Shown one piece after another: positions 44,286-47,057 of a stretch of 64,000 bases of DNA. A model generated the notes under the pieces. That model was given only the letters and a program-made list of their open reading frames with translations, was not told the origin of the DNA and made no database searches. The DNA is from Gemmatimonadota bacterium (GTDB lineage Bacteria; Gemmatimonadota; Gemmatimonadetes; Gemmatimonadales; Gemmatimonadaceae), in the NCBI GenBank assembly GCA_021324775.1, contig JAJPIM010000024.1, positions 62,001 to 126,000 of the forward strand. The letters run 5' to 3'. A program made the translations under genes and the position numbers. Within the stretch, counting starts at the first letter, position 1; the number at the start of each line of letters is the position of its first letter.

Positions 44286-45365
44286 TCAGTCGCCGAATGA
44301 GATTCCAGTCGCCCGCGCGGTCATGACGACGTCGCTGGCGGGATCGACCCGCTTCGGGTGGCGGAGCACCTCTCGGATGGGAACGGTCACGATGTGCGGC
44401 GATTGCAGTGCCACCATGTGGCCCCACCGTTCGTCCGCGACAGCCCGCACCGCAGCCCCGCCGAAGCGAGCGGCGAGTAGGCGGTCGTAGCCCGTCGGCA
44501 TCCCGCCGCGCTGCAGGTGTCCCAGGACGAGGGACCGGGTCTCCTTGCCGGTTCGCTCCTGAATCTCGCGGGCGATGGAGCTCGCGACGCCGCCCAGCCG
44601 CGGCATCTCACCGGGCAGCGATGCCCCGATCCGTGAGGCTGCGCCGCCCGCCGGGAACGCACCCTCGGCCGTGACGATGATCGAGAAATACCGCCCCGCG
44701 CGATCGCGGGCGCGGACTTTTTCGCATACGCGCTCGATGTCGAACGGAATCTCGGGGATCAGGATCACATCGGCGCTGCCGGCCAGCCCGCAGTGGAGCG
44801 CAATGAAGCCGGCGCTTCGGCCCATCACTTCCATCACGATCACCCGGTCGTGGCTCTCGGCCGTCGTATGCAGCTTGTCGATCGCTTCGATCGCGGTGCT
44901 GACGGCGGTGTCGAATCCGAAGGTCGAGATGGTGCCGGCGACGTCGTTGTCGATGGTCTTCGGCACGCCGACGATCCGCATGCCCTGGTCGCACAGTTGC
45001 TGCGCGATAGCCAGCGATCCATCGCCTCCGATCGAGATGATCGCATCGATGCCGCGAGCGCGCGCGTTGGCGATCAGTTCGCCGGACCGATCCACCTCCT
45101 CCACCGTTCCATCCGGGCGGGTGCGGTGGTAGTGGAACGGGTTGCCCCGGTTCGTTGCGCGAAGGATGGTGCCGCCGAGGTGCCCGATGCCGCGCACGGA
45201 ATCGCGGGTGAGTGGCACCACCTCGTCATCGCCCAGGAGCCCCGCGTACCCTTTTCGGATCCCGTACACCTCCCACCCGCGGTCGAGCGACGCGAGCACC
45301 GCCGCCCGAATCACCGCATTGAGACCCGGGGCGTCACCCCCTCCCGTGGATAGTGCGATCCGCAT
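44286..45365 (-). CDS. pfkA: 6-phosphofructokinase
   Basis: The 359-residue kinase phosphorylates fructose 6-phosphate. Start MRIALSTGGGDAPGLNAVIR, the donor site GGDGSL at 113-118, substrate loop GVPKTIDND at 133-141 (catalytic Asp), and EVMGRSAGFIA. Gly in GGDGS is the residue found in ATP-using enzymes, while the Lys of PKTIDND is found in PPi-dependent and plant/trypanosome-type enzymes. The combination predicts ATP use in that clade but is unlike E. coli PfkA (PGTIDND). Ends with TARATGISFGD. Confidence 0.95.
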   Translation of the reverse strand: MRIALSTGGGDAPGLNAVIRAAVLASLDRGWEVYGIRKGYAGLLGDDEVVPLTRDSVRGIGHLGGTILRATNRGNPFHYHRTRPDGTVEEVDRSGELIANARARGIDAIISIGGDGSLAIAQQLCDQGMRIVGVPKTIDNDVAGTISTFGFDTAVSTAIEAIDKLHTTAESHDRVIVMEVMGRSAGFIALHCGLAGSADVILIPEIPFDIERVCEKVRARDRAGRYFSIIVTAEGAFPAGGAASRIGASLPGEMPRLGGVASSIAREIQERTGKETRSLVLGHLQRGGMPTGYDRLLAARFGGAAVRAVADERWGHMVALQSPHIVTVPIREVLRHPKRVDPASDVVMTARATGISFGD

Positions 45366-45439: not shown

Positions 45440-45673
45440 TTATCGCGCGGGCGCGCGCTGCAGCAATCTCATCACCTCACCCGGCTCCGCGTGCCGTTTG
45501 AGTTTCGATTTCTCGAACACCGGCGCGCCGTCGCGCATGACTTCGAACCGGCCGCCTTTCGACGGGATGAGCGTCACCGTCGCGCCCGGATACGCGGCGC
45601 GGATCTCGGCCATCAAACTGACAGCCCGTGGTTTGTAGTTTCAGACGACGCAGTATTCGATCGTGACGGTCAT
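45440..45673 (-). CDS. SelW/Rdx-family selenoprotein (in-frame TGA = selenocysteine)
   Basis: Reading through the TGA at 45641-45643 gives a 77-residue protein that starts MTVTIEYCVV, has selenocysteine at position 11 (CVVU: Cys8 to Sec11), then NYKPRAVSLMAEIRAAYPGA and GGRFEVMRDGAPVFEKSKLK. This is the thioredoxin-like SelW/SelT/SelH (Rdx) family, whose redox site is CxxU or CxxC at the end of the first strand, followed by NY-P-A. Start ATG 45673 has the ribosome site GGGGA six bases upstream, and the stop is TAA at 45440-45442. The length and frame are otherwise intact and similarity continues on both sides of the TGA, so it is not a pseudogene. Family function: thiol redox, possibly peroxide defence. 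Confidence 0.85.
45610..45638 (-). promoter_or_regulatory. Possible bacterial SECIS hairpin
   Basis: Downstream of the TGA the minus strand folds into a stem of about 10 base pairs (CAAAC with GUUUG at its centre, CUA with UGG outside, AC with GU inside) topped by the loop GGGCU. The loop begins with G, as bacterial SECIS elements do. The distance from the UGA to the loop is about 13 bases, slightly shorter than usual. Confidence 0.4.
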
Positions 45674-45724
45674 CGAAATCCCCGTTTGTAAATCCATGCT
45701 GATCGTGCCCGCCCGGCCTCGGCC

Positions 45725-46888
45725 CTAGGCTGCCGCCACCGTCCCGAAGTCGTACCCCGGCACGGAGATCCGCGGGATCGGCTGGCCAAGCATCCGCTCG
45801 ATCGTTCGGACCATCGCGATCTCGTCGGCGGACATGAAGGTGAACGCGTCACCGGTCTGCGCCGCGCGCCCCGTCCGGCCGATCCGGTGCACGTAATCCT
45901 CGGGCTGCTGCGGCACATCATAGTTGATCACGTGCGAGATGCCGGACACGTCGAGTCCCCGCTGCGCGATATCCGTCGCCACGAGAATGCGGGCTGCCCC
46001 GGACTTGAATGATTCGAGTGCGCGGGTCCGCTGGGACTGCGACTTGTCGGCGTGCAGGGCGATGGCGGCGATGCCGGCCCGATCGAGGTGCCGCACCACG
46101 CGGTCCGCGCCGTGCTTGGTCCGCGTGAAGATGAGGACCGAGTCCATCTGGTCGTTGCGAAGCAGCTCGATCAGCAATGCGCTTTTCCGTTCGCGAGGGA
46201 CCGGATAGACCGCATGCGTCACCGTGCTCGCCGCCTCGGATCGCCGCCCAACCTGCACGACGACGGGCTTGCGAAGGTACTTGCGGGAGAGCGCCTCGAC
46301 TTCGGCCGGCATCGTGGCGCTGAAGAGCAGCGTCTGGCGGTAGCGCGGCAATTGCTCCACGATCCGGTTGAGCTGCGGCGCGAACCCCATGTCGAGCATG
46401 CGGTCGGCTTCGTCGAGCACCAGGAACTCGAGTGCGTCAAAGCAGACGTTCTGCCGCTCGAGGTGGTCGAGCAGTCGCCCGGGCGTCGCCACGACGACAT
46501 CCACACCAGCTCGCAGCGCCCGTTCCTGCGGCTCGATCGGAACGCCGCCGTAGACGGGGATCACGGACACGGCCGCGTGCCTGGCGTATTTCACGAAGCT
46601 GGCCTCGACCTGAGCCGCCAACTCCCGCGTCGGCGTCAGGACCAGCACTCGCGTTCGCCTCGGGCCCCCGAGGAGGCGCTGTACGATCGGGAGGGTAAAG
46701 GCGGCGGTTTTGCCGGTGCCGGTCTGTGCCAGCCCGATGATGTCGCGCCCTTGAAGCACCCGGGGAATGGCGTCCCGCTGAATGGGCGTGGGCTCGGTGT
46801 ATCCTGCGTCCTGCACTGCGGCCAGGAGCTCGGGCACGAGGCCCAGCTCGCCGAACGTGGTCACACGGTCTTCTATTTCGGGATCCAT
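45725..46888 (-). CDS. DEAD-box RNA helicase (RhlE-like)
   Basis: The 387-residue protein starts at ATG 46888 (MDPEIEDRVTTF), which begins just before the Q-motif region TEPTPIQRDAIPRVLQGRDI. Helicase motifs: AQTGTGKT (I), PTRELA (Ia), TPGR (Ib), VLDEADRMLDMGF (II, DEAD), FSATMP (III), ATDIAQRGLDVSGISHVINY and HRIGRTGR (VI). Domains are the two RecA-like folds only, with no C-terminal extension, as in short RhlE-type proteins. Likely in RNA remodelling, ribosome assembly or mRNA decay. Confidence 0.95.
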   Translation of the reverse strand: MDPEIEDRVTTFGELGLVPELLAAVQDAGYTEPTPIQRDAIPRVLQGRDIIGLAQTGTGKTAAFTLPIVQRLLGGPRRTRVLVLTPTRELAAQVEASFVKYARHAAVSVIPVYGGVPIEPQERALRAGVDVVVATPGRLLDHLERQNVCFDALEFLVLDEADRMLDMGFAPQLNRIVEQLPRYRQTLLFSATMPAEVEALSRKYLRKPVVVQVGRRSEAASTVTHAVYPVPRERKSALLIELLRNDQMDSVLIFTRTKHGADRVVRHLDRAGIAAIALHADKSQSQRTRALESFKSGAARILVATDIAQRGLDVSGISHVINYDVPQQPEDYVHRIGRTGRAAQTGDAFTFMSADEIAMVRTIERMLGQPIPRISVPGYDFGTVAAA

Positions 46889-47057
46889 GACGCTGTGAAA
46901 TTGGCAGCCTGCAAAGGTGAGCCAATGTCCACGTGCGACAGGAATCGGCCCTACGGGCAACGGGTCGCCGATTGCGGCGCCCGGGCGTTCACCCGTTCAC
47001 GAATTGTAACCCCTTGTCCCGCTTTGCGCTACGCGGAGGCGCTTTGCGCTGCGAACG

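Follow-up and report, generated by a model that had tools for sequence, protein, structure and literature searches.

Between a DEAD-box RNA helicase gene and pfkA, the window (the whole 64,000-nucleotide stretch of Gemmatimonadota DNA that was analysed) contains a short reading frame interrupted by a TGA, and the question raised by this locus is whether that codon is decoded as selenocysteine (Sec). A preliminary description had proposed a 77-codon frame with one TGA at codon 11, without naming a strand, and had assigned its product to the Rdx/SelW family with the TGA on the redox position of a CxxU motif. All of this agrees with our analysis: the frame lies on the minus strand (Table 1), codon 11 is its sole in-frame TGA and, with the TGA read as U, the translation is a protein of 77 residues, MTVTIEYCVVUNYKPRAVSLMAEIRAAYPGATVTLIPSKGGRFEVMRDGAPVFEKSKLKRHAEPGEVMRLLQRAPAR. 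The plus-strand reading of 45440-45673 gives no meaningful product and was rejected. The assigned ATG (45673) is the start in the majority of SelW-like homologues; a second in-frame ATG is present at 45697, 8 codons upstream. The gene was also said to be hidden from ordinary gene calling between its two neighbours, and indeed no standard-code open reading frame (ORF) of at least 60 amino acids covers it on the minus strand. Annotation pipelines that terminate at TGA will overlook this gene in Gemmatimonadota genomes.

Table 1. Features of the SelW-like locus (columns: feature, positions in the window, strand, details, basis)
SelW-like Rdx selenoprotein gene	45440..45673	minus	77 codons; ATG 45673-45671, TAA 45442-45440	
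In-frame TGA at codon 11, predicted Sec codon of C-V-V-U	45641..45643	minus		homologue conservation
Predicted SECIS hairpin	45608..45626	minus	7-bp stem, apical loop AGUUU at 45619-45615	comparison across homologues
GGGG, possible ribosome-binding site	45680..45683	minus	6 nt 5' of ATG	read from sequence alone
pfkA, 6-phosphofructokinase, downstream neighbour	44286..45365	minus		Pfam PFK, 1.3e-100
DEAD-box RNA helicase, upstream neighbour	45725..46960	minus		Pfam DEAD, 1.2e-52

The protein scores above the curated cut-offs of three family models: Pfam Rdx (PF10262; 64.9 bits, cut-off 22.6, E-value 7.8e-18), NCBIfam NF041051 (a model for SelT/SelW/SelH family (seleno)proteins; 92.7 bits, cut-off 88) and TIGR02174 (55.3 bits, cut-off 34.2). 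Both the Rdx and the NF041051 alignments span the TGA. Solved relatives include the SelW-related proteins 2fa8, 2ojl, 3dex and 2p0g, and in those shown aligned a Cys stands opposite the TGA position. C8 and U11 are invariant in the homologue alignment. An AlphaFold2 model built with 27 sequences (mean pLDDT 90.9) has its first strand at residues 2-8 and its first helix at 14-27, and the CxxU loop connects the two. In the PDB it is closest to 2fa8, 2ojl and 2p0g and also matches mouse SelW 2npb, with TM-scores up to 0.84 over these structures. The protein is therefore predicted to have the thioredoxin-like Rdx fold, and it is probably a small thiol/selenol oxidoreductase, for which we infer both the redox activity and a partner.

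The source genome (a draft of 4.19 Mb in 46 contigs, 98% complete) encodes the machinery for Sec use that the preliminary description had predicted of the organism. SelA (541 bits), SelB (338.8 bits, above the cut-off and with the SelB winged-helix domains) and SelD (370 bits) are all present, and selD adjoins selC, the gene for a tRNA-Sec with the anticodon TCA (UCA) scoring 72.5 bits. Weaker tRNA-Sec matches elsewhere in the genome were assigned to Ser or Leu tRNAs, and SelB matches of approximately 165–194 bits, covering model positions 1-266, appear to be EF-Tu.

The SelW-like protein was found in 192 of the 395 genomes of the phylum. Relatives that carry names assign the source genome to Gemmatimonadota; the majority bear the label Gemmatimonadaceae or are Gemmatimonadetes metagenome-assembled genomes. 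We read 166 homologous loci directly (137 distinct sequences), and codon 11 is TGA in 165 of these and TGC in one, with no other stop at this position; loci with TGA extend to Calditrichaeota, Neomarinimicrobiota and other phyla. An apparent second TGA in one homologue (G108) proved to be the ordinary stop codon of that gene. The TGC locus belongs to G128, a complete genome on one contig, in which both an above-cut-off SelB and a tRNA-Sec are absent. Among genomes of the same order, 136 have both the gene and SelB (above the cut-off), 16 the gene only, 18 SelB only and 58 neither (Fisher p = 1.5e-23, a rough guide given that the genomes share ancestry). Genomes with SelB in which no SelW-like gene was detected include G024, G039, G079, G089 and G112; these presumably use Sec in other proteins. 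Several genomes with the TGA fall below the SelB cut-off. Seven such genomes, mostly fragmented assemblies, were rechecked: a tRNA-Sec with the anticodon TCA is present in all seven, and one proved to be above the SelB cut-off. On these comparisons, the gene, its TGA and the predicted hairpin described below are common to most Sec-capable relatives of the source organism, a soil bacterium.

A bacterial SECIS element would be expected to follow the UGA within the coding sequence, and the source gene satisfies the published constraints for bacterial SECIS elements (PMC13188914) with a folding energy of -10.1 kcal/mol. The hairpin starts 14 nt 3' of the UGA; its stem pairs offsets 17-23 with 29-35 (counted from the U of UGA), and the apical loop, [A/G]GU[C/U]U, begins 21 nt 3' of the UGA. 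An Rfam search of the region returned no SECIS family, only a sub-threshold SAH match. Taken alone, the source hairpin is not unusually stable relative to shuffled sequences (z 0.39); since single-sequence folding is uninformative here, the case for a SECIS element rests on cross-species comparison. Offsets after the UGA are fixed in 120 non-redundant homologues, permitting direct comparison of third codon bases. Offset 23 is C in 120/120, the residue being Ala, Val, Thr or Ser. The codon at offset 24 is GGT or AGT in 109/120: Gly is encoded by GGT in 53 of 54 cases and Ser by AGT in 56 of 56, although elsewhere in the gene these codons account for only 16% of Gly and 4% of Ser codons, respectively. 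The pair 17-35, which joins two third codon positions, is paired in 87.5% of homologues versus 60% after shuffling. When changes are traced on a tree from which the hairpin columns tested were left out, this pair has 24 compensatory double changes and the pair 20-32 has 6, versus 0–5 for control pairs. The defined hairpin occurs in 116 of the 120 homologues versus 5.1 expected under codon randomisation, and in the TGC gene of G128 the loop codon is changed to GCG. These patterns indicate that the UGA is followed by a conserved, putative SECIS decoding signal, at which codon choice is overridden at synonymous sites.

The explanation that we favour, with a probability of about 97%, is that this gene encodes a SelW/Rdx selenoprotein. 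SelB carrying Sec-tRNA-Sec would be recruited by the hairpin loop and would bind at the UGA of codon 11 during translation, and insertion of selenocysteine would create the C-V-V-U redox site. The computed support consists of the family assignment, the fold prediction, the four Sec genes, the conservation of the UGA, the conservation as well as covariation of the hairpin, and the change of Sec to Cys where the machinery is absent.

The best surviving alternative takes its cue from the gene neighbourhood. In 77 of the 109 loci tested (some of which duplicate one genome), pfkA follows within 1.5 kb in the same orientation, mostly near the gene end; a helicase motif lies upstream in 19 of the 109. 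The locus might therefore act as a selenium sensor, in which the UGA mostly terminates translation and regulated read-through is coupled to translation of pfkA. We regard this as improbable: constraint at the protein level extends over the entire C-terminal part, which retains the Rdx fold, and the Cys version in G128 also has pfkA as its neighbour in a gene without any UGA. Because that version retains the neighbour, the linkage to pfkA is independent of Sec. The pairing may reflect a functional link or a simple shared gene order; the former, in which phosphofructokinase might be tuned by a selenol-dependent redox partner, is unlikely, if somewhat less so than the sensor. Were a link to exist, selenium supply would feed into glycolysis in Gemmatimonadota.

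It is more improbable again that the locus is a pseudogene or a sequencing error, in which mutation or misreading turned a Cys codon into TGA, leaving the remainder of the frame as a relic. The single in-frame stop and the 46-contig draft assembly would be compatible with such an origin, but the TGA recurs in nearly all loci, across many species and several phyla, and is followed by the covarying hairpin. Moreover, codons 3' of the TGA vary chiefly at third positions, as in a translated frame (difference rates of 0.36, 0.30 and 0.60 at the first, second and third positions). Neither of the outcomes that the preliminary description named as refuting its reading was observed: selB and selC are both in the genome, only TGA or TGC occurs at codon 11, and the frame beyond it is constrained. 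The cross-species conservation refutes the pseudogene or error explanation. A genome-wide change of the genetic code (TGA as Trp, Cys or Gly) would likewise place TGA inside a conserved reading frame, but can be practically dismissed given that TGA is the stop codon of ordinary genes such as pfkA and, among 33 long ORFs of the window that do not overlap one another, the apparent stop of 18 (a mechanical count, in which some ORFs may not be genes), that a dedicated UCA tRNA-Sec, SelA, SelB and SelD are present, and that in FdhA, too, TGA occupies positions known to hold Sec.

With respect to known relatives, the selenoprotein reading makes this gene a very well supported case of a known family, and its novelty is in the lineage only. 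The preliminary description took Sec use to be little documented in this lineage, and it overstated the surprise of a SelW-like selenoprotein. Members of this family with CxxU have long been established as selenoproteins in other bacteria (PMC1794560, PMC2398784) and were the most abundant selenoprotein family in a large marine metagenome (GOS) survey (PMC2398784), with few Cys homologues in Sec-using organisms (PMC1794560, PMC2398784). The source gene resembles these PF10262 proteins in family, CxxU motif, Sec position and the rarity of Cys homologues. Known hosts are Deltaproteobacteria, Clostridia, Symbiobacterium and marine metagenomes, whereas the gene described here is found in Gemmatimonadota, usually beside pfkA. 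The closest curated model, NF041051 (SelTWH_Campy), represents SelW genes of epsilonproteobacteria that were likewise missed by annotation (PMC4607533); it comes from another phylum, and the source protein scores just above its cut-off. The predicted fold and CxxC/U loop are shared with 2fa8, 2ojl, 2p0g, 3dex and mouse SelW 2npb, although the solved bacterial SelW-related proteins shown have Cys where the source gene has Sec. In the literature searched (main texts open without subscription), selenoproteins of Gemmatimonadota go unmentioned, and the main text of a large 2016 survey (PMC5029168) does not name them either. The Sec trait is widespread in this little-documented phylum, which is common in soil, and a covariation-supported alignment of the predicted SECIS element is now available for an entire phylum.

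The source genome contains at least three further selenoprotein genes, one peroxiredoxin-like and two of the formate dehydrogenase type, each with a hairpin at a similar distance from the UGA. The two formate dehydrogenase-type genes (L212:1732 on contig C20 and L213:1930 on contig C2) carry TGA at the Sec position of the RxUH motif, and their hairpin loop, GGUCU, is located 18 nt 3' of the UGA. The peroxiredoxin-like gene (L210:330-1007, contig C13) has an in-frame TGA at KGUT, followed by a 7-bp hairpin with the loop CGUGAUCA at an offset equal to that in the SelW-like gene. In a search of ten genomes, its best match has TGA in five of five genomes with SelB and in none of five without; relatives without SelB have Cys at this position. 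The hairpin DNA is near-identical in the SelB genomes read and altered in the Cys copies of G086 and G128, both of which lack SelB. In G086 (L219), which has no SelB above the cut-off, the peroxiredoxin-like gene is present as a tandem pair of Cys copies. Together with the TGC version of the SelW-like gene in G128, these are clean natural Sec-to-Cys replacements in two different proteins: where SelB and tRNA-Sec are missing, the UGA and the hairpin loop are lost as well.
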